Source of the DNA: Tolypeutes matacus
Taxonomy: Eukaryota; Chordata; Mammalia; Cingulata; Chlamyphoridae
Assembly: GCA_026826555.1 (NCBI GenBank)
Contig: JAKSZT010000142.1
Coordinates: 3,193,004-3,257,003 of the forward strand
Length of the DNA: 64,000 nt
Reading direction: 5' to 3'
Under the pieces are notes generated by a model that saw only the letters and a list, made by a program, of their open reading frames with translations, was not told the origin of the DNA and ran no database searches. The translations under genes were made by a program, and so were the position numbers. Of this stretch, positions 14,835 to 33,869 are shown in pieces. Position 1 is the first letter of the stretch. Every line of letters starts with the position of its first letter.

Positions 14835-17602
14835 AAGAGAGTATGCCAATAAGAAACCACCCTTCACAAAATACTAAAGGGAGTTCTGCAGGTTAAAAGG
14901 GAAAAACAAGATAGAGAGAGTTGGAGGAGAGTGTAAGAACAACTAAAAAGACAAAAAGAGAAATAGCAACAACTTATGATATACATAAACCCAAAGAAAA
15001 TATGGCTAATATAAGTCATTCCTTGAGAGCAATAACACTAAACACTAATGGATTAAACTCAGCAGTCAAGCGATGCAGATTTGTAGAATGGATGAGGAAA
15101 TATATCCCATCTATACGCTCTCTACAAGAAATACACCTTAGACGCAGGGATTCAAGGTGGCTGAAAGTGAATGGCTGGAAAACAATATTACAAGCAAAGA
15201 ATAACCAAAAATGGCAGGAGTAGCTATAGCAATATCAGACAAATTAGATTTCAAATGCAAAACTATTGCAAGAGACAAAGATGGACACTATATATTAGTA
15301 AAAGGGGTAAACTTTCAAGAAGAAAGAACAATCATAAACATTTATGCACCTAACCAGGGTGCCTCAAAATACATGAGGCAAATACTGGAAAAACTAAGTG
15401 GAGAAATAGATTCCTCTACAATTATAGTGGGGTATTTTAATACACCATTATCACCATTAGGAGAAAAATCTCGACAGAGAATCAATAAAGAAACAAAGGC
15501 TTTGAATAATACATTAGTGGATCTGGGCCTAATAGACATATACAGAACACTACACTCAAATACTGCGGATATACATTCTTCTTAAGTGCACATAGATCAT
15601 TCTCTAAGATAGACCACATGCTAGACCACAGAAAAATTCTCAATGAACTCAGAAAGACTGAAATTACACAAAGTAATTTCTTTGACTACAATGGAATGAA
15701 GCAGGTAATCAGTTAAGGGCCAGAAAAAATAAATTAGGCAAAAAGATATGGAAGTTAAACAACACAGTCTTAAACAATTGGTCAAGGAGGAAATTTCAAA
15801 AGAAATCAGTAACTACCTTGAAACAAATGAAATGAGAAAAAACATAAGAAAACGTGGGCTGCAGCAATAGCTGTTCTGAAAGGGAAATTCATAGCCATAA
15901 ATACATTTAGAAGAAAGAACTAAAATTGAATATCTAACTGCACACCTGGAGGAATTAGAAAAAGAACAACAAACTAATCCAACAGTAAGTAGGAGGAAAG
16001 AAATAACAAAGATTAAGCAGATCTAAATGAAATAGAAATAAGAAAGCACCAGAAAAACTAAAACCAAAATCTGGTTCTTCAAGATCAATAAAGTTGACAA
16101 ACCCTTAGCTAGACTAACAAAGAAAAAAAGAGAGAAGATGCCAATGCACAAAATAAGAAATGAGGAAGGGGATATCACCACTAACCCCGCAGAAATAAAG
16201 AGTATCATAAGAGGATACTTTGAAAAATTATATGTCAACAAGAAGAATAATTTAGAGGAAAGAGAAAAATACAAGCAGCCTACATTGACCAAAGAATAAA
16301 CTGATGAACTCAACCGAACTTTAACAAGTAAAAATATAGAATCACTCACCAAAAACCTCCCAACTAAGAAGCAAGAGCCAGATTGCTTCACAGGTGAATT
16401 CTACCAAACATTTTGGAAAGAACTAACACCAATTCTGCTTAAACTCTTCCAAAAAATAAAAGTAGAAGGAACATTGCCTAACACATTCTATGATGCCAAT
16501 ATTACACTAATACCAAAGCCAAACAAAGATGCCACAAGAAAGGAAAATTACAGTCCGATGTCTCTAATGAACCTAGATGCTAAAATCCTAAAAAAAAAAA
16601 AAAAAAAAAAAAAACAACAACAAAAACACACCTGCTAATCATTTTCAGGAACATATCAAATCTTTATACACCATGACCTAGTGGGTTACATCTTAGCTAT
16701 GCAAGGATGATTGAACATAAGAAAATCAATGTAATACACCACATAAACAGATCAAAAGAAAAAAAAATCACATGATCATCTCTATGGAAGCAGAAAAAGC
16801 ATTTGACATAATACAGTACCATTTCCTGACAAAAACACTGCAAAAGATAGGAATAGAAGGAAACTTTCTGAACATGATAAAGGGCATATATGAAAAACTC
16901 ACAGTTAACATTATATACAATGGTGAAATTCTAAAAGCTTTTCTCTTGGGAACAAGACAAGGATGCACACTATCACCACTCCTATTTAACATTGTGTTAG
17001 AATTGCTTGTCTGAGCACTGAAGCAAGAAAAAGATATAAAAGGCATCCATATCAGAAAGGAAGAAGTAAAAAATTTTACTATTTGTGGACGACATGATCC
17101 TATACATAAAAATCTACAACAAAGCTACTAGAACTTATGAATGAGTTCAGTAAATTTGCAGATTATAAGGTCAATGAACAAAAATCAGAATCATTTCTAT
17201 ACATCAATAACGAGCAAGCTGAGGAGGAAATCAATAAAAAAATGCCATTACAATAGTAACTTAAAGTATCAAATACCTATGAATAAATTTAACTAAAGAT
17301 GTAAATGACTTATACACAGAAACATGCACAACGCTCTTAAAGGAAATCAAAGAAGACTTAAATAAATGGGAGAATTTTCCCTGTTCATGGATAGGAAGAC
17401 TAAACCTCATTAAGATGTCTATCCTACCCAAACTAATCTACAGATTTAATGCAATTCCAATAAAAATCAACACAACATTTTTTACTGAATTGGAAAACCT
17501 AAATATGAAATTTATTTGGAATGGCAAGAGACCCCGAAGAGCCAAAGATATATTGAAAAAGAAAAATGAAATTGAAGGTATCACAGTACCTGACTTTAAA
17601 AC

Positions 17603-18004
17603 ATACTACATACTCTTCTCTTTCTCTCCCTTGTTAACCTATCTTTCAAGCAATGGTTCTCAGAGACTGCTCACTTTCCTCAGATCAAATCAGTGAGGTC
17701 ATATACTGTTCATCCTTCAATGCCTGGCTTGCTTCACTCAACATAAAGTCTTCAAGATTCATCCATGTTATTCCATGTGTGGGATGTTGTGGGGGGAGTG
17801 GGACGTGGGGAACATGGGAATCCCTGTAAGTTTTGTGCGGCATTTGTGTAATCTAAGCATCTTTTAAAATATATATATATAAATAACATTTATATAAACA
17901 AATGCACATATATGCATATATAGTTATATATCATTTTACAAATATTGGTTTGTATTATGAAAAATTTGATTTTTACCCACAATAAAAAATATATATATAC
18001 TACA
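17603..18004 (+). mobile_element. Twin-primed (5'-inverted) L1 fragment with duplicated ATACTACA
   Basis: ATACTACA flanks the insert at 17603-17610 and 17997-18004, and L1-A ORF2 resumes in register across it. About 17611-17775 is L1 ORF2/3'UTR sequence in reverse orientation, matching 38400-38550 of minus-strand L1-D ('ggcttgcttcactcaacata'). About 17776-17996 is the L1 3' terminus in forward orientation ('gtgggatgttgtggggggag', 'gtaatctaagcatcttttaa') with an AT-rich tail. Inverted 5' part plus direct 3' part is the mark of twin priming. Confidence 0.75.
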
Positions 18005-18643
18005 AAGCTACAGTGGTCATAACTGCTCGGCATTGGCACAAGGATAGACATACCAGCCAATGGAATCAAATGGAGACTTCTAATTTAGATCCTTGCATAT
18101 ACAGTCATCTTATATTGGACAAGTCCACCAAGCCCACTCAAATGGGAGAGAATGGCCTCTCAAGAAATGGTGCTCGGAGAACTGTCATCCATACCCAAAA
18201 GAATGGCAGAGGAACACCATCTCACACCTTATACAAAAATCAACTCATGCAGGATCAACGATCTAAATACAAGAGCCAAGACCATAAAGACCTTGGAAGA
18301 TATTGTAGGGAAGCTTCTACAAGAAATGTCTTCATAAACTTCATACCCAAAGCACAAGCAGCAAAACCAAAAAATAGATAATGGTACCTCCTCAAAATTA
18401 AAACATTTTGCACCTCAAAGGACTTTGTCAAGAAAGTGAAAATACAGCCTACACAATGGGAGAAAATATTTGGTACCATATATCTGATAGGAGCCTAATA
18501 TCCAACATATATAAAGAAAACCTATATTTCAAAAATAAAAAGATATACAACCCATTTAAAAATGGCCAAGTGATTTGAACAGACATTTCTTCAAAGAAGA
18601 AATACAAATGGCTAAAAAAGCACATGAAAAGATGATCAATAGC

Positions 18644-18649
18644 ACTAAC
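18644..18649. repeat. ERV-2 target site duplication (ACTAAC), left copy
   Basis: ACTAAC precedes the LTR edge and recurs at 20013-20018. Removing ERV-2 restores the L1 reading '..tagcactaactattagg..'. Six bases is the size usual for betaretroviral rather than gammaretroviral integrases. Confidence 0.8.
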
Positions 18650-19194
18650 TGCCGCTTTGTTCCCGGGCCTGAGGGTGATCAGCCCTGCTGCAGCCCGGGG
18701 GGGCGACACTGGCTAGTTTTGGGCCGTCCCGTGTGCACTCCGGGAACGGCGAGGGTGAGGAGGTTCTCAGGGAGCGGCGTCGGGTTGGGGGCTCCCTGGT
18801 CTCCACGGCTCAGGTGTGGGGGGTATCTGGTAAGGACCGCGCGTGAAAGAAAGACTCAAGACCTCTGAGTGTGGGGGAAGAAGCAAAGGGAGAGAGAGCT
18901 TTATTGAGGAAGTACAGTGCATATATCCTCTTCAGGCTGGGGGCAGTCCCTCAGCCGATGGTGGAGGCTTATCATTGGGCAGTGGTTAGGGTCAGGGGTT
19001 GCTAGGGAGAAGAGGCAGAATTTGGGGGCGGCAAGGGGCGAAGCAAGGTTGTTCAAAAAAGGCAATAACTGGGGCGAGAGCTCAGATTGGTGAGAAGGAA
19101 CAAGGAAGAGGGAGAGAGGGAAAAGGGGAATGGGGGAAGGGGTTATGTTGCGCAGGCAAGGCCACAGCAAGGCCTGCAGTTTGTAGATACTGCA
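18650..19194 (-). repeat. 3' LTR of ERV-2
   Basis: The 545-bp LTR starts TGCAGTATC (minus strand) and ends GCGGCA. Minus-strand TATA-like TATAT at 18921-18927 is followed about 20 bases later by AATAAA (18900-18905). U3 is CT-rich; the downstream R/U5 part is GC-rich with many CpGs. The tight TATA-to-AATAAA spacing recalls type D/betaretroviral LTRs with a very short R rather than MLV-like LTRs; this last point is inference. Confidence 0.8.
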
Positions 19195-19216
19195 TCTCCA
19201 CCCTTATTTCTTTTTT
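19195..19216 (-). other. ERV-2 polypurine tract
   Basis: Minus strand AAAAAAGAAATAAGGGTGGA then GA, directly upstream of the LTR TG. It is purine-rich apart from a single T and correctly placed for plus-strand priming. Confidence 0.8.
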
Positions 19217-19229
19217 AGGCCAACAGATA

Positions 19230-19585
19230 GGGAGCTGGGCCTGTCTTAGGTCATAGCCGGCTGAGGCACTAGTAGCTCTTACCCGTCTTTGGGCTATCCC
19301 AGCAGCAGCTGTGCATGAACGGTAGGGACTGTGCCTGTCTTAGGTCAGAACCATGCAGAAAAAGGGGGCTGGATCTTACCCGTCTTTGGAAACTCTAGCA
19401 GCAATGATTGAGCCAAGCGCCATGGCAACAATCGGCTAGTTTCCTGTCTTAGGTTGTCCAGCGGTGCTAGTATAAGGTTCAGTTGCCCGTCATAGGACAA
19501 CAGCCCAGCAGAGCAACAGCGGCTGGTGCCCTGTCTTAGGTTGGCTACCTTTTGTGCCTGGCTAGGTTGCCTGTCATTGGCTCAC
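19230..19585 (-). promoter_or_regulatory. CTE-like RNA export element with eight half-sites
   Basis: On the minus strand two motifs alternate. Motif B, ACCTAAGACAGG, occurs four times without mismatch (plus coordinates 19530-19541, 19443-19454, 19334-19345, 19240-19251). Motif A is CCAATGACAGGCAA (19567-19580), CCTATGACGGGCAA (19483-19496), and CCAAAGACGGGTAAG twice (19375-19389, 19278-19292). Order from env to LTR is A-B-A-B-A-B-A-B. In Mason-Pfizer monkey virus the constitutive transport element lies at the same place and uses nearly the same two motifs, twice each, to build two loops bound by NXF1/TAP for export of unspliced RNA. Complementary flanks (CTGGTG/CACCAG around the first A-B pair) support local folding. 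Function here is inferred. Confidence 0.75.
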
Positions 19586-19662
19586 CAGTTCAGCTCTATC
19601 TTGGCCAAATTGTAATAGGTGGAGAGGTTTGTTTGGAAAGGGAGGAGGGACAGGGTAGGGGC

Positions 19663-19955
19663 CTAGAGGGGTGAGTGATCGGCATGGATTGGGCGATTGA
19701 AGGATTGGTTGTTGTTGGAGAGATGCAGATATTCGACTTCACGGGTTTGGATTCGCTGATAGCGGACGGTCACTGGCTTATCGAAGAGGGAGTTGCGAAT
19801 CGCCTGCAAGAGTTTTTGAAAGAGAGTAGGGCCTAGAGAGAGAAGGAGCAGAATGAGTATTAAAGGGCCAAGGAAGGGGAGGAGGTAAGGGAGGAGTTTG
19901 TCAAATCCCCAGGAGGTCCAGGTGTTGTTGCTAAGGGCTTCATACTCCTTTTTGC
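19663..19955 (-). CDS. ERV-2 env TM C-terminal part (partial, runs into gap)
   Basis: About 97 codons without interruption on the minus strand, from the gap edge to a stop at 19665-19663. It reads a membrane-proximal stretch (NNTWTSWGFDKLLPYLLPFL), a long hydrophobic membrane span (LGPLILILLLLSLGPTLF), then a basic cytoplasmic tail (KPVTVRYQRIQ) with tyrosine-based motifs further on. This matches the end of gamma/type D Env TM. No stop or frameshift is visible in the part present. The 16 residues that appear upstream of the gap when the frame is read through are LTR sequence, not env. Confidence 0.8.
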
Positions 19956-19965
19956 NNNNNNNNNN
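19956..19965. other. Assembly gap (10 N)
   Basis: Ten N separate env sequence from a 47-bp LTR start. The size is likely a placeholder. Most of the provirus would lie here. Confidence 0.9.
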
Positions 19966-20012
19966 TTGCGCAGGCAAGGCCACAGCAAGGCCTGCAGTTT
20001 GTAGATACTGCA
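19966..20012 (-). repeat. 5' LTR start of ERV-2 (47 bp)
   Basis: Identical to 19148-19194 over all 47 positions, and it ends at the 6-bp duplication. It is the first 47 bases of the upstream LTR, cut by the gap. Confidence 0.8.
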
Positions 20013-20545
20013 ACTAACTATTAGGTAAATTCAATTCAAAGCTATAAGGAGGTGCCATCTTAAATCCATTAGACTTGTGGCCATTAAAAAAACAGAGGAA
20101 GACAAGTCTGGAAAGGATGTGGAGGAATGGGAACCATCATCCACTGTTTGTGGGAATGTAGAATGGTCCAGCCATTGTGGAGGACAGTTTGGTGGTTCCT
20201 CAAAAAAGTAATAATAGATCTGCCATATGATACTGCAATATAGTTCCAGTATATGCCCAGAAGAATTGAAAGCAGGGACAAGAACAGATATATGCACATC
20301 AATGTTCATAGTGGCATTATTTACTATTGCCAAAAGTTGAAATCAACCCAAATGCCCATCCATAGATGAATAGATAAACAAAATGTGATATGTACATACA
20401 ATGGAATATTATTCCACTGTAAGAAGGAATACAGTATTAACAAACTGGATAACATAGATGAATCTTGAGTATCTTATGTTGAGTGAAGCAAACCAGGCAT
20501 TGAAAGACAAATATTACATGACCTTTTTTATATGAATTAAGCAAA

Positions 20546-23459
20546 TTGAACAGACTCAGGGACCTAGAGCCTCAAAGATAGGCTTACAGGAAATAGAGAG
20601 AAGAAGGTTGTGAGCTAATGCCTATACAGGTAAAATCTATGATAAGGTGGATGTGACTAATTGCACAGTGAAGGGCCAAGACAAAGGTGTAGTGATTTTA
20701 TTGGTTTGTGTGGTACAAGCATGACAGGGATGTAGGTTAGGGAGGATGTGTTAGATGGTCCATGGAACTGAAGGAAGAGTTTGGGGAGGGAGCAGGTGAA
20801 CACTGGGGATTGGCGGGTATGTGGTTAAACTACAATGCTGAGAAAGCTCTTTTGGCAACATGACAAGGAAGGATTACTGGTTTAGGATTTTGGATGGGAG
20901 AGCATTTGAGACAGGGCATACCTGGGGCAGTCTTCTAGAGAATGTGCAAGTCATTATTTTGTCATAGTGTTTTGTATCAGTGGGTGGAGACCCACACAAT
21001 GAGTGGGAAGGAGTTAGGCTCTCATACTGGGGAGGCCCTAAATGTTCTCAAACAGAGGGGAGGGTGTCTCTTGAGAGCATGCATGGTTCCTAATAGGGGA
21101 GGGTGGACTAATGTGTTAAGCCCTCAGTGTTGTTGCAAGTATCTATGAATCTTGTCCTTGAAGATGTAAAGCCTGGTGGTTGCCCAGGGTCCCGAGGGGA
21201 TGGTGAGGGCGGAATAGAATAGGTGGAAGAGGGATTATTTAGGGGGCAATGGAAGTGTTCTGCATGATCTTGCAATGATGGTACAAGCTATGTTAAATTC
21301 ATTAAAAAATTATAAAAGTGTAAGTTCTAAAATGTAAACCATAATGTAAACCATTGGCCATGGTTGGTAGCTATGTTTCAATATTTGTGCATCAGTTGTA
21401 ACAAATGTACCATCCACATGTAAAAACGTTATTAATATGTGAAAGGGGAAAAGGGTGATGATGTTGGATATATGGGAGTCTCCTATATAATATATGTGAC
21501 TTTACTATAACCTAAAACTTCTTTGAATACAAAATGAAAAGAAAGTAAGACACTGGGGAAGAAATGGAAGAAAATGTCACTGTACATACAGGACAACAGA
21601 TATTACAGTGATGAAAGGCAAATATAAAATCAATTATAATTTTTTTAATGTCCCAAATTATTTTTTACTTTATTTTAGTTTTAGTGTTTCTAAATTATTA
21701 CTTATTTTATTTCTTATAGTTAAAATTATCATTATTTCATTTTCCAATTAATTGTATTTGGTGATATTCTTGGCTTCATTTTTGAAGAGGTGTTGGATCA
21801 AAAAGGGTTACAACTCTAGGAGGGGAGGATCATTTGTGTAGGGTGTCAGTGATGGGGGATATATGGTTGGAAGTTTACCTGGGCATACATATAAGGTATA
21901 TAAACTTGTTTAAATATTCATGGGACATTTCCACAGTGAATAGAGATACACACAACAACTGAAAGAATGTTGAATTCCCATCCTGGGGAGCTCTGCCACA
22001 TTCTCTAATGGAACAGCACCAATCTCCCAAGTACAGGTGCAATGACTAATAAAGAAGAATGGTCCATTGATGGGCCCTTGATATTGATGACTATGCCTAT
22101 GAGCCTTTGCTCTTGAAATTGTAACTTAGCCTAGTGTTGTAGGGTGCCTAAGAGTTACCTACTGGGAGCCCCCTTGTTGCTCAAATGTGCCTCTCTCTAA
22201 GCCAAATTCAGCATACAAATGCATTACCTACCCCCTAGCATGGGACATGACTCATGGGGATGAGCCTTCCTGGCATCGAGGGATTACTACCAAGCACCAG
22301 TGGTGATGTAACTGGAAAAATTCCTTGAATAAAAGTGGGAAAATGTAAAGACAAATGAATTTATATGGTTAAGAGATTTCAAAGTGAATTCGTAGGTCAT
22401 CAGAGAGATACCGCTTAAGCATGTCTCAGCAGGATATCATAGACTGACAAAGTAGATATTACCCCAAATAGTAGGGCTCCTGAGGGCTATGGAGACACCT
22501 AGGTCCTACAGTAATGGCAGATAGCACTCGAGTTTGGTGCCTTGCCAGCAGGTCCTACTTTGGAGTTTGTGCTCCTGAGTGTGACAGAGTTGGACTCCAA
22601 TGTGAATTCTCTACACATGCCTCTTCTCTTCATGTTATTTGAACACATAGTTTGTGCTGGAGTTTGTAGGTGTACATCCAAGAGAATTGAATCTCTGGGC
22701 TGTCCATATGCCAGCTGGGGCATAAGCCTCAGGGGAGTTGCAATACCTACTCTCTTGCTTACTGCACTCACCCAGGACAACAAACAAGGAGGTGAGGATG
22801 GATAATCACCACACCAAGGACCCAAGAGAGTAAACAACTGCAAGTAAGAGGGTCCCATCTATCAGCCATATGGCATCTAAGTTTCCTTTCAATTAAAGGT
22901 GGAGTGGGCATCACAATCCCAGAATCCTCAGGCCTGGGGAATAAAATGTGGGCTAGAGTGGACTTACTGGTAATCTACTATAGACTTATTGTGATACTAG
23001 CAATGGAAGAAATTATATCATGGAAGTGGAGACAGTGGCCACTGCAGGTGCTGAATTCAGGGAGAGGGGAAAAGATGTGTAATATGGGGGCATTTTCAGG
23101 ATTTGGAGTTTTCCTAAATGACATTGCAATGACAGAAATAGGCCAGTATATATCCTGCCATAACCTACAAAATTGAGTGGGAGAGAGTCTAAACTAAAAA
23201 GTAAACTATAATCCATGCTTAGTGGCAAAGCTCCAAAATGTGTTCATTAATTGCAATGAATGTACCACACTAATGAAAGAAGTTGTTAATGTGGGGAAAT
23301 GTGGGATGTTTGGGGAGTGGGGCATATGAGAATCCCTTATTTTTTTTATGTATCATTTTATGTAATCTAAGTATCTTTTAAACATAAATTATATATATAT
23401 AATTTATATATATATATAAAGTGTATATATATATAATTTATATATATATATATATATAT
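20546..23459 (+). repeat. L1-A 3'UTR with two tandem paralogous modules
   Basis: Proximal module about 20546-21545; its end carries 'gcatgatcttgcaatgat', 'catggttggtagctatg', 'agttgtaacaaatgtaccat' and 'taacctaaaacttctttg'. A linker with 'tgtacatacaggacaacaga' follows (about 21546-21690). The distal module, about 21700-23390, ends with the matching series ('gacattgcaatgacag', 'taaactaaaaagtaaacta', 'tgaatgtaccacactaatga'), then a (TA)n tail to 23459. Minus-strand L1-D has the same proximal-linker-distal order (38450 down to 36007), so this is a family feature. Frames such as 22904-23176 are not supported as genes. Confidence 0.7.
23382..23459 (+). repeat. (TA)n microsatellite forming the L1-A tail
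   Basis: Alternating TA blocks separated by 'aatttatat' and 'aaagtg' units directly before the right target duplication. It takes the place of a poly(A) tail. Confidence 0.75.
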
Positions 23460-30505: not shown

Positions 30506-31100
30506 AGTAGTAGTTTGGCATTATTTATGAATTCAAAAAATAGAAAAATAAATAAATAAATAAAAATAGATATTGGATTATGTTTGTACACTAGTGTGTA
30601 TCTGGGCATGATTAAATTATGAATAGGGCTTTAATTTGGACATGTCAGTAGGACGTTGAGTGTCTGTCCCCTTCTTAGGCAGGAACTTACAGATAAAACT
30701 ACATGACAGAACAGAGTAGTTAGTTGGAGTGCTGATGCTGAGTTTTGAGCTTCAGCCCTGGGAAGGAAGTACACAGAGGATCTTAGTTGTGAGGAAGGAG
30801 AGACAACACTGGGAACAAAGAGGAGCCATTCGCCTGGTAGCCTACAACTGAGCCCAGAAAGAAACAGAGTTCAAGGAAAGAGACAAAACATTGAGAGCCA
30901 GACCATGGAGCCTTAAGAGGAAGAGGAAGGCTGAACATTGGCAGCCATCTTGCTCCAAAACATTGCAATAGACTCGTGAGGGAAGTATCTTTTGCTTTAT
31001 GGCATGGTAACTGTAAGCTTCAACCCCAAATAAATACCCTTTATAAAAACTGACCAATTTCTGGTATTTTGCATCAACATCCCATTGGCTGACTAATACA
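30506..31100 (+). repeat. 5' LTR of ERVL-like element
   Basis: Aligns with 33295-33869 throughout ('tttggcattatttatgaat', 'gataaaactacatgacag', 'agccatcttgctccaa', 'caaataaataccctttata'). The first bases are mutated from the TGTAG seen in the other copies to AGTAG. AATAAA lies at about 31031-31036. Confidence 0.8.
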
Positions 31101-31101
31101 A

Positions 31102-31121
31102 AATTTGGTACCATGAGTGGA
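31102..31121 (+). other. Primer binding site, tRNA-Leu type (diverged)
   Basis: 'aatttggtaccatgagtgga' directly follows the 5' LTR. Its TGGTACCATGAGTGG core is a mutated form of the tRNA-Leu complement used by ERVL and MaLR elements. Confidence 0.55.
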
Positions 31122-31197
31122 GTAGTGCTTTTGCAATTACCAAAATGCTGGAGCAGTTTTAAAATGAGTAAGGGGTATTTTTTGGAGAAATTGTGAG

Positions 31198-31800
31198 ATG
31201 CTTGATGGAAAAGACCTAGAGTTCTTTTCAGAGACTGTTGGTAGTAATATGGAGCTTAAAGTTATTTTTGATAAGGCCTTAGAACTAAATAATTGTGAGA
31301 TGGATGCTAAAGAAACTTTTTATGAAGACCTAGAAGTAACTTATGAAACTATTATTGGAAACTGGAGGAAAAGTGATCCATGTTTTAAAGTTGCAGAGAA
31401 CTTAGCAAGATTAACTCCTGATGTTCTATGGAAGGAAGAATTTGAAAATGGTGAACCTGAGCATTTAGCTGAAAAACTTTCCAAAATAAACCCACAGAAT
31501 GCAGTTTGGCTTCTCTTTGAAGCTCATAGCAAAATGCTAGATGAGAGAAATACACTGAGGCCTGAACTGCTGGGCATAAAGAAAACAGGAACTGATTCTG
31601 GAAATTCCAAGCCTCTGGAAATCAAGCTCCCAGACAATAGTACCCCATTTGAGGACTTAACTAAACCTGGAACTTGTACGTCAGTATTGCAGATGCAGTT
31701 ATCTTGGAAAGACTTGTGGAGAGTCTTGCTGCCTGATGGCTTGGAACCCTGCTTCCTGCATGCTAAACCAACAAAACTTTTGAGAGAGCTGTATGAATAA
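31198..31800 (+). CDS. 200-codon ORF of the ERVL-like element, function unknown
   Basis: An uninterrupted frame starting about 100 bases after the 5' LTR, the place of gag. The product is acidic and mostly helical by eye: ELKVIFDKALELNNCEMDAK near the N-terminus, then SDPCFKVAENLARLTPDVLW, EEFENGEPEHLAEKLSKINP and LLFEAHSKMLDERNTLRPEL, then a looser, proline-containing tail. I see no zinc knuckle, protease or RT motif, no signal peptide and no membrane span. It may be a gag-like protein of a non-autonomous MaLR/ERVL element, or sequence captured from a host gene. Neighbouring ORFs in this window are broken; this one is not. Confidence 0.5.
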   Translation: MLDGKDLEFFSETVGSNMELKVIFDKALELNNCEMDAKETFYEDLEVTYETIIGNWRKSDPCFKVAENLARLTPDVLWKEEFENGEPEHLAEKLSKINPQNAVWLLFEAHSKMLDERNTLRPELLGIKKTGTDSGNSKPLEIKLPDNSTPFEDLTKPGTCTSVLQMQLSWKDLWRVLLPDGLEPCFLHAKPTKLLRELYE

Positions 31801-32502
31801 AATCACTGTCAACCTGGAATAAAGGGGACATGGAAAAGAGAGTTTGAAGGAGAAAAACTTTAGGAGGAAAATCATGGAATCTGAGATCTGGAATTAAGAT
31901 ATCACCTTGGGCCAAGAGAAGAACCCCACCTATGTGTACATAGAGGGTAAGTTTGCCCCAGAAGTTAAAGAGGGTGGATATTCACACCCAATGTTTGGAT
32001 AGAGTTTGCTTACCCAGGGTACAGAGAGGATGGAGCACATTCCTCAAGGATTAAGGTGGTTAAGGTCAGCACCCCATAGGTCTGAGAGAGGTGCAACTAT
32101 CCCCCATGCATAAGTTAAGGTCAGGTGGTCAACTTGTTGCTCTGAGAGTGTTGAGCCTGTATGACAAAGTTTAAAGGAATGTTTCATTCACATCACAGTA
32201 CTAAGAGGATTAAGACTGTAATCCCAAGATTGGGTAAAATGTGGCAACCACCCCAATGTTCTTGGAGGGTGAGGTCTGGAGTTTGGTTGACACCCAGATG
32301 CTTGATCAGGGTGGAACCAAAAAAATGGCCATTGGGCAAGCCTGTGGAAAGGGTGGGTCCCCAAGTTGTCCCAAGGAGAAGAAACCATTACCATTGTCAT
32401 AAGAATGACTCTTAAGCATTGATATCAAATGGAGTATACCCTGCAGTTTTTCTGAAAGGTAGAGGACCCATGACTCATGTTTCCTTAGCAATTTCTCCTT
32501 AT
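31801..32502 (+). other. Rest of ERVL-like interior, no gene
   Basis: Non-coding. Loosely repeated blocks recur ('agagaggatggagcacattc', 'gattaaggtggttaaggtca', 'ataagttaaggtcaggtggt'), suggesting decayed tandem units as seen in some MaLR interiors. The open frames at 32161-32415 lack any domain. Confidence 0.4.
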
Positions 32503-33086
32503 GATAATGTATTAGTCAGCCAAAGGGGTGCTACTGCTAAATACCAGAAATGGGTTGGTCTTTATAAAGGGTATTTATTTGGGGTATAAGTCCACAGTTA
32601 CCAGGCCATAAAACGTAAGTTACTTCTCTCACCAAAGTCCATTGCCACTTGTTGGAGCAAGACAGCTGCCGACATTTGCCAGGGTTCAGGTTTCTTGGGT
32701 TCATCTCTTCTGGGGGCTGTATTTCTCTCTGGGCTTAGCTCCTCCGTTTCCTCCACTAAGTCAGTTGTAGACTACCAGGTGAACAGCTTGCTTCTTTTCT
32801 CCTGGGGCCTTCACTCCAACATCAAAACTCCAACATCAAAAGTCCATCAAAACTCCAACATCAAAAACTGCAACTCAAAAACTGCTCCCTCTGTCCTTTG
32901 CCTTGCCTTTTATATTCAATTCCCCCACCCACCAAGGGGTGGGGCTTAATGCCATACTGATGTGGCCCACTCAACACCCTAATCTTAACTTAATCATGCC
33001 CAGATTAACAGATCTGTTTACAAGCATGATCTAATTATATTTTTGGAATTCATAATTACGCCAAATTGCCAAACGGCTACAGATAA
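32503..33086 (-). mobile_element. Solo LTR of a related ERVL-like family with GATAA duplication
   Basis: GATAA flanks the LTR at 32503-32507 and 33082-33086. The LTR proper (32508-33081, 574 bp) reads on the minus strand from TGTAGCCGTTTGGCAATT to GACTAATACA. Its ends match the provirus that hosts it, but the middle differs. It contains a short tandem array around 32815-32885 built on 'ctccaacatcaaaa'. Confidence 0.8.
32815..32885. repeat. Short tandem array in the solo LTR
   Basis: Units related to 'actccaacatcaaaa' repeat four to five times with small indels. Confidence 0.7.
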
Positions 33087-33280
33087 TGAAAATGTTTATC
33101 CTTTGCCTGCCCATTTGTGCATTGGAAGCAGATAAATGGTTTTGTAAGTTTCAGGGGTCTACAGCAGATGGGACTTTTCCCCAAGACAAACTATATTTCT
33201 TTAAAATGATTATGACATGATTTTGTACTTGCATTGTTACTGATTTAAGGTTTTTTGAATATTGTAATGTGTTTTTGGAA

Positions 33281-33294
33281 TTCAGAGGGTGGAG
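33281..33294 (+). other. ERVL-like polypurine tract
   Basis: 'ttcagagggtggag' directly before the TG of the 3' LTR. Purine-rich after its first bases and correctly placed. Confidence 0.5.
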
Positions 33295-33869
33295 TGTAGC
33301 TGTTTGGCATTATTTATGAATCCCAAAAATAGATTTTGGATTATGTTTGTAAACTGGTCTGTGATTAAATTATGATTAAAGCTTTGATTGGGCCACATCA
33401 ATTGGACATTGAGTCTCTGCCCCCTTCATGGGCAGGAACTCACAGATAAAACTACATGACAGAAAAGAGGAGTTAGTTGGAGTTTTGATGTTGGAATTCT
33501 GATTCTGAGTTTTGAGCTTCAGCCCTGGGAACTAAACACAGAGAGGAGCTTGGTCATTAGGAAGGAGAAACAGCCCTGGGAAAAGAGATGAGCCATTCAC
33601 CTGATAGTCTACAACTGAACCCAGAGAGAAACAGAGGCCCGAGAAGAGAGACAAAGCATTGAGAGCCTGACCATGAAGCCTTAAGAGGAAGAGGAAGGCT
33701 GAATGTTAGCAGCCATCTTGCTCCAACATGTGGCAATAGACTGATGAGGAAAGTAACTTATGCTTTATGGCCTGGTAACTGTAAGCTTCAAACCCAAATA
33801 AATACACTTTATGAAAACCGAGCAATTACTGGTATTTTTCACCAGCACTCCTTTGGCTGAATAATACTG
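33295..33869 (+). repeat. 3' LTR of ERVL-like element
   Basis: The 575-bp partner of 30506-31100, starting TGTAGCTGTTTGGC. Its terminal ACA is mutated to ACT. AATAAA lies at about 33799-33804. Confidence 0.8.

Follow-up and report, generated by a model that had tools for sequence, protein, structure and literature searches.

Does the stretch between the env stop and the polypurine tract of an endogenous retrovirus (ERV) of Tolypeutes matacus carry a constitutive transport element (CTE), how many NXF1-binding loops would it offer, and how are its parts arranged? The locus lies on the minus strand of the window, as we call the whole 64-kb stretch of DNA that was analyzed. According to the available text of PMC4330390, the CTE is a direct NXF1 ligand with two loops fitting the NXF1:NXT1 dimer; in SRV/MPMV, each loop is described as binding one Tap-p15, and the two loops as fitting the 2-fold NXF1:NXT1 platform (PMC4330393, PMC4330390). 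The original prediction proposed four loops for the present locus, twice the MPMV/SRV number. This proposal gained support from the nested fold predicted for the aligned copies, from covariation, and from the presence of the motifs throughout the family. We consider it highly probable that the stretch is a CTE of the MPMV/SRV kind enlarged to four predicted NXF1 sites in one hairpin.

Half-sites and the surrounding provirus

Eight half-sites were found on the minus strand between positions 19580 and 19240, in the strict order A-B-A-B-A-B-A-B (Table 1). The four B sites are exact copies of ACCTAAGACAGG (starts 19541, 19454, 19345, and 19251), and the four A sites carry CCWAWGACRGGYAA, starting at the upper coordinates given in Table 1. 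The alternation of four exact B copies with four A-type copies was thus borne out. All eight sites share the 11-nt core CCNANGACRGG, of which no further match was detected on either strand of the 64-kb window. The first-order Markov expectation for this core is 0.3 in the whole window and 0.0009 on one strand of the element stretch, compared with eight observed.

Table 1. Coordinates of the element and of the provirus around it, in minus-strand order; partners and loops are those of the predicted nested hairpin.
Feature	Position	Strand	Remark
5' target-site duplication GTTAGT	20013..20018	-	
5' LTR stub	19966..20012	-	first 47 nt of LTR; 0/47 differences vs 3' LTR
Assembly gap, 10 N	19956..19965	.	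stands for remaining provirus interior
env end (TM tail) and stop	19663..19955	-	Pfam TLV_coat, E 8.7e-07
env stop	19665-19663	-	
Four-loop constitutive transport element (nested hairpin extent)	19232..19591	-	from predicted folds and alignment
Half-site A1	19570..19580	-	opposes B8, loop 1
Half-site B2	19530..19540	-	opposes A7, loop 2
Half-site A3	19486..19496	-	opposes B6, loop 3; closing pair 19496/19334 covaries (C-G, U-G, U-A)
Half-site B4	19443..19453	-	opposes A5, loop 4, apical
Half-site A5	19379..19389	-	opposes B4; letters of printed SRV-1 half-CTE strand
Half-site B6	19334..19344	-	opposes A3
Half-site A7	19282..19292	-	opposes B2; letters of printed SRV-1 half-CTE strand
Half-site B8	19240..19250	-	opposes A1
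Polypurine tract	19195..19216	-	ahead of 3' LTR; approximate limits
3' LTR, 545 bp	18650..19194	-	TG...CA ends, AATAAA inside
3' target-site duplication GTTAGT	18644..18649	-	

Primers for an SRV-1 half-CTE are printed in the accessible part of PMC4330393 as a Tap-binding probe. One printed strand contains ACCTAAGACAGG and the other, reverse-complemented, CCAAAGACGGGTAA; these letters recur in all four B sites of the window element and in A5 and A7, so the comparison with the SRV CTE that had been proposed was positive for the B core and for two of the A cores. The printed half-CTE also has AA before the B strand and TAA after the A strand, and the same letters accompany the 5'-arm B and 3'-arm A sites here. 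Judged by letter identity, the window motifs are NXF1 half-sites. A covariance search, also proposed in the original prediction, turned out negative: the Rfam scan of positions 17000-22000 detected no retroviral family, CTE or otherwise, with an E value of 1 or below, and assignment to the CTEs rests on the other evidence presented here.

The predicted place of the array, between the env stop and the polypurine tract, proved correct. The element belongs to a minus-strand provirus flanked by 6-bp target duplications, GTTAGT on each side; duplications of 6 bp are betaretroviral. Most of the provirus interior is missing, as a 10-N gap joins the 47-nt 5' LTR stub directly to the env tail, and the LTR pair, compared over 47 nt with 0 differences, gives no date. 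The env pieces of six loci, one from each of the four-loop subfamilies S1, S2, and S3 and the two-loop families T1, T2, and T3 described below, matched TLV_coat, and ERV, MLV-related, and syncytin TM proteins were among the 14 PDB matches of the S3 piece. The type of pol was read from a 1.6-kb pro-pol piece of one sister copy, the window's own pol lying inside the gap. This piece contained an aspartyl protease and a reverse transcriptase (RT), and the best PDB match of the RT was 7sr6 (E 6.9e-100, labelled "Polymerase"), which we take to be HERV-K, with HIV-2 RT (5.1e-43) behind it. Going by the 7sr6-type RT of the sister copy, the TLV_coat env, and the 6-bp duplications, the layout is MPMV-like; the combination of a beta pol with a gamma-type env is given as the MPMV layout in the accessible text of PMC11379458 and PMC3621094.

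Several further features of the locus and its relatives were recorded. The provirus flanks looked L1-like by eye, in keeping with a mammalian host, and the two flank pieces scanned had no Pfam match. A tRNA scan intended to reveal SINEs was negative. Contigs C1465, C1537, and C1745 each contain two four-loop elements on the same strand, 6.2 to 8.1 kb apart, which are possibly tandem proviruses with a common LTR, the spacing then being the provirus length. Elsewhere, the window (30609-33867) has two direct copies of a ~490-bp repeat spaced ~2.76 kb apart, as well as partial inverted copies around 32.5-33.0 kb. The CpG observed/expected ratio over positions 1-64000 is 0.11, which is lower than that of most mammals.

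Four-loop and two-loop copies in the genome

A DNA search of the animal's own genome (3.63 Gb, 5002 contigs) yielded 354 candidates, of which 40 were scored. All 40, the window's own included, covered the element at 98-100%. Among the 30 copies fetched, with the window's own counted, 25 had all eight sites and five had seven; the single losses affected B2 (L009, L029), A7 (L024), A3 (L031), and A5 (L033). Family members thus keep the motifs, the loss of which in relatives would have spoken against the original prediction. Genome-wide, the B-then-A pattern gave 888 matches (475 + 413), and the B..B..A pattern, which cannot arise from a lone ABAB array, 326; the reversed control gave 0 in both cases. 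Since an eight-site copy gives at most two B..B..A matches, the latter number means ~163 such copies or more.

The loci taken from the pattern-match lists were the first by contig number, with no random draw. They revealed at least four diverged four-loop subfamilies, told apart by spacing and letters, with two-loop (ABAB) CTEs alongside. S1 is the window's own subfamily; S2 comprises L045, L079, L083, L103, and L119; S3 comprises L062, L065, L068, L078, L084, L085, L086, L091, and L100; and S4 comprises L114-L117. The two-loop families are T1 (L039 and many more, some with a longer last spacer), T2 (L038, L090), and T3 (L034, L060). On average, 17.9% of sites differ between S1 and S3 elements, and the sequence 3' of the element differs as well. 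Within S1, the mean difference in the element is 0.7% (32 copies), a value that leans young, as 30 of these copies come from the best-scoring 40 of 354.

The sets of 46 and 51 four-loop copies used below include the window's own (L004) and were chosen for having eight sites. Sixteen loci were dropped as further cuts of places already represented, and L075, L080, and L098 were excluded from the four- and two-loop sets by their site strings. L104-L111, L118, and L120, which are four-loop by spacing, stand outside the 51-copy alignment because their site strings contained an additional, distant match or a site whose assignment to A or B hinged on one letter. L067 is part of the two-loop alignment (35 copies) and stands outside the flank count (34 copies).

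Some loci had unusual site strings or spacings. The S1-like L098 (C922:307900-309100) reads ABBAB: a missing stretch that begins inside A3 and ends shortly before B6 has taken A3-B4-A5 with it, and the outer shell remains with a lone B. In L080 (C584:5412300-5413500), an S2-type four-loop copy, no A1 or B2 core was detected, and A3 to B8 remain. In some T1-like two-loop copies, the A and B of the 3' arm are 28 to 45 bases farther apart than the normal spacing of 36; the spacing is 70 in L067, L076, L088, and L097, 80-81 in L041, L044, L070, L077, L081, L092, L093, and L095, and 64 in L072. An additional B-like site, TCTAAGACTGG or ACTAAGACTGG, lies 15 nt ahead of B4 in the four-loop copies L040 and L120 and might be left over from another half-site.

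A scan of IMG/VR with the B..A pattern gave three matches, each made of two B-type words and taken as chance. Two of them (L001 and L002) are one common short repeat, and the third (L003) lies inside a long non-retroviral open frame.

Predicted fold and conservation of the element

The order ABABABAB permits two arrangements. In the first, all sites belong to one nested hairpin. In the second, head-to-tail duplication has given two ordinary CTE hairpins (A1-B4 and A5-B8) in tandem, each working as a two-loop CTE independently of the other; nearly every motif-closing pair would form here as well. The cleanest evidence for choosing between the two is, in our judgment, provided by the letters that flank the sites, which depend on the arm. 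In two-loop copies, CAA follows the 5'-arm A (34/34) and precedes the 5'-arm B (34/34), TAA follows the 3'-arm A (34/34), and TGA or CGA precedes the 3'-arm B (30/34). In four-loop copies, the first four sites bear the 5' marks in 46, 45, 45, and 46 of 46 copies and the last four bear the 3' marks in 46, 45, 46, and 46 of 46, with near-identical S1 copies making up 32 of the 46. The resulting order 5',5',5',5',3',3',3',3' agrees with nesting; a tandem would need 5',5',3',3',5',5',3',3'.

The unconstrained alifold prediction, based on 36 distinct rows representing 46 copies, was also one hairpin, with the pairings A1·B8, B2·A7, A3·B6, and B4·A5. Its energy was -90.8, compared with -65.9 summed for the two halves folded apart. 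The structure comprises 100 pairs, six of which show two-sided changes (47 cells), and 99.3% of its cells are paired; these values were counted on the very alignment from which it was derived. With slid partners as a control, 24-45% of cells paired, and at most three pairs (17 cells) were two-sided. The halves folded apart reached 98.8% of cells paired and four two-sided pairs (12 cells), which could be read in favor of the tandem; however, the A and B strands are not opposed in the CTE manner in these folds.

When S4 was added (51 copies, 41 distinct rows), there were still six two-sided pairs, with 51 cells against a maximum of 23 cells in 500 shuffles; the number of pairs is within reach of the shuffles (mean 5.1, max 6), and the cell count alone exceeds them. 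The covarying pairs are 19548/19272, 19547/19273, 19515/19310, 19496/19334, 19442/19390, and 19441/19392. They are few and follow the subfamilies, and thus represent few independent events. The pair 19496/19334, which closes the A3·B6 loop, occurs as C-G (34 rows), U-A (six rows), or U-G (one row). In a tandem, the same change would cost 6 of 51 copies a B6-A7 closing pair, while A3-B6 covaries, keeping its own. When structures obtained from the window copy alone were applied to S2 and S3, the nested form had 91% of cells paired and 38 two-sided cells; the tandem form kept 79% (S2) and 88% (S3) of its pairs, with no two-sided changes.

The energies of the window copy point in the same direction. 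The free MFE was -123.0 kcal/mol; the best fold with the cores kept open reached -112.2, and forcing the nested or the tandem form gave -108.5 or -82.5, respectively. Relative to the MFE, keeping the cores open thus takes 10.8 kcal/mol and imposing the full nested form 14.5 kcal/mol, and the tandem costs 26 kcal/mol more than the nested form. Relative to the cores-open fold, the nested form cost 0-6.4 kcal/mol in all nine copies folded (S1, S2, S3, and the intermediate L040), and the tandem 28-45 kcal/mol (29.7 in the window copy). After shuffling of the window spacers (n = 100), the nested cost rose to 33 ± 8 kcal/mol with a minimum of 18.5; the shuffled tandem cost was 35 ± 8, and the cost of forcing the real tandem lies within this range. 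In view of the flanks, the covariation, the energies, and the best match of the inner four sites to two-loop families T2 and T3 (see below), we regard two independent hairpins in tandem as quite improbable.

Plain folding stability was discarded as uninformative for the element: the stability of the single sequence is ordinary (z -0.51), and 31 of 100 shuffles fold as well. The unconstrained MFE of the window copy has B4-A5 as its sole clean loop, the remaining sites being engaged in local or shifted pairing. The opposition of A and B in internal loops, on which the original prediction depended, was found by alifold of the aligned copies and, in the window copy alone, when forced. These predictions suggest that the A and B strands oppose each other in internal loops of one hairpin. 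In the joint alifold of the 35 two-loop copies, whose spacers are of unequal length, the CTE form was recovered for the apical loop, B2·A3, and for no other; this fold has 26 pairs, five of them two-sided, at 98.6% paired.

Comparison of the subfamilies provided a view of conservation. A site was counted as a fixed difference when the two subfamilies had different letters, each with a uniformity of 75% or more; columns below 75% were skipped. Between S1 and S3, they affected 3/88 core, 14/160 paired non-core, and 50/143 unpaired sites; between S1 and S2, 4/88, 10/160, and 40/144; and between S2 and S3, 6/88, 21/160, and 61/144, where the paired class is flattered, being defined by the fold of the alignment itself. 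With the nested fold of the window copy alone, S1 and S3 differed at 23/179 paired and 32/107 unpaired sites, and with the tandem fold at 21/153 and 34/133; the conservation of the cores is independent of the fold chosen. Departures within S1 numbered 8/2816 cells in cores, 12/5120 in paired, and 24/4576 in unpaired positions. The original prediction had attributed the exact B motifs to selection or a recent duplication. Recent duplication alone does not suffice, because the cores are near-fixed between subfamilies ~18% apart.

These data also bear on the view that the repeats have no RNA function and are an array produced by chance or by replication in a non-coding stretch. The region between env and the polypurine tract is indeed non-coding, and its folding energy is unremarkable. 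However, the motifs match a printed NXF1 half-site exactly (in the accessible part of PMC4330393), the cores and stems are conserved between subfamilies whose unpaired sites differ at 28-42%, and the A/B alternation is strict and accompanied by arm marks. A functionless array is hardly credible on this evidence.

Origin, proposed mechanism, and known systems

The two-loop families offered a clue to how the four-loop form arose. With the cores removed, the 5' arms of one T2 and one T3 locus scored best against unit A3-B4 (0.49-0.55 vs 0.29-0.42 per base) and their 3' arms against A5-B6 (0.48-0.63 vs 0.28-0.45); two T1 loci had no consistent best unit. Since the T2 and T3 arms best match the inner units, the inner half is probably the ordinary CTE, to which the outer half would have been added as a shell. 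The order of the flanks is what a second loop pair wrapped around an ABAB hairpin would produce. Spacer similarity between the units was set aside as a test of the origin: with one locus per family and the cores removed, unit-vs-unit scores were 0.24-0.42 in S1 and 0.34-0.40 in S3, against a shuffle mean of 0.22 and maximum of 0.35, and such alignment scores are weak and non-discriminating.

Candidate origins are a head-to-tail duplication that was later reshaped, an arm-by-arm duplication, and a CTE inserted at the apex of a second one. The arm flanks favor arm duplication or apex insertion over head-to-tail duplication, and they are the one line of evidence that does so. The four loops of the original prediction were supported, but the duplication of an A-B-A-B unit, if read as a head-to-tail copy, fits poorly with the flanks, which are four times 5' and then four times 3'.

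If the inner half resembles the two-loop CTEs of T2 and T3, the inner sites (A3, B4, A5, B6) might be the whole working CTE and the outer four half-sites a decaying or redundant shell, especially as two loops are enough in MPMV/SRV according to the available text of PMC7551171 and PMC4330390. Yet in the 51 copies, whose selection required all eight sites, the outer closing pairs are as intact as the inner ones; in the 30 copies fetched without this requirement, the site lost was an outer one in three cases and an inner one in two; and the outer stems covary (19548/19272, 19547/19273). We therefore consider an idle outer shell unlikely.

The preferred reading remains an element with four functional loops. 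In the proposed mechanism, one long hairpin would form in the unspliced RNA (and the env RNA) of this type-D-like ERV, with four internal loops of alternating orientation, three stems between them, and a B4-A5 apical hairpin as its cap. Of the loops, the inner two would correspond to the ordinary two-loop CTE of the sister ERV families and the outer two to the added shell. Going by motif identity, each loop may bind one NXF1:NXT1. Given one NXF1 per CTE loop and the fit of two loops to a dimer, four loops would seat two dimers, so that two NXF1:NXT1 dimers would be loaded onto one RNA with a 4:1 stoichiometry. Intron-containing viral RNA would then pass the nuclear pore without a viral export protein. 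In this scheme, the motifs, their position, the nested fold, the covariation, the conservation, and the two-loop relatives were computed here, and from them we infer NXF1 binding, the 4:1 stoichiometry, and the export activity of the element.

Work on CTE copy number, as far as its available text goes, indicates what the added loops might contribute. Four CTE copies were far superior to one for unspliced-RNA expression from constructs, and CTE number was additive for RNA targeting to the microtubule organizing centre (PMC4829213); with four copies, the titre of lentiviral vectors rose strongly, and with one or two the effect was minimal (PMC1904242). The window element equals two copies, so it may plausibly, though not certainly, surpass a two-loop CTE. 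We lean slightly toward the broader reading that this is a natural single-hairpin CTE with four NXF1 loops, selected in several ERV lineages, in which a loop pair wrapped around a two-loop CTE creates a cooperative scaffold for two dimers. If so, retroviruses would tune export strength through loop number.

The coexistence of natural four-loop elements and two-loop relatives in one genome makes the question of how many NXF1 molecules an exported RNA wants testable. The copies also form a natural variant set for refining the rule of NXF1 recognition, with near-invariant core letters and arm-dependent flanks. The literature searched, from which most subscription papers were missing, yielded no description of a naturally occurring CTE in which the number of NXF1 loops exceeds two.

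Comparison with the MPMV/SRV CTE demonstrated a common set of half-site letters (an AAGACA-type core with CC...GG closings, as printed for SRV-1 in the accessible part of PMC4330393), a common site after env and before the 3' LTR, and A and B strands predicted to oppose each other in an internal loop. The proviruses also share a beta pol with a gamma-type env (PMC11379458, PMC3621094, in the text available), pol being known here from a sister copy. However, the available text of PMC7551171 and PMC4330390 describes two loops in about 130-175 nt, whereas four are predicted here in a single hairpin of ~360 nt. The fold thus suggests a variant of the MPMV/SRV-type CTE rather than a plain member, as four loops depart from the two loops with 2-fold symmetry. 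The two-loop CTEs of sister ERVs (L038, L039, L060, and others) have the same motifs, ABAB order, arm flanks, and upstream TLV_coat env and differ in having two loops; those of T2 and T3 best match the inner half, and T1 is non-discriminating.

Among the other systems, the retained-intron CTE of the NXF1 gene resembles the window element, by its description in the accessible part of PMC4330390, as an NXF1-binding CTE-like RNA, although it belongs to a host gene and not to an ERV. The MER11-derived CTE of SERV-K/MER11 is likewise a natural ERV 3' export element, of larger size than the MPMV CTE; in the available text, its authors report no NXF1-binding loop motifs (PMC11379458), whereas the window element has them. 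Finally, engineered 4xCTE concatemers also place more than two NXF1 loops on one RNA but, as described in the text available (PMC4829213, PMC1904242), are artificial and arranged head to tail, whereas the window element is natural and its loops are predicted to be nested in one hairpin. It may therefore serve as a natural comparison for the artificial CTE concatemers of vectors and reporters.
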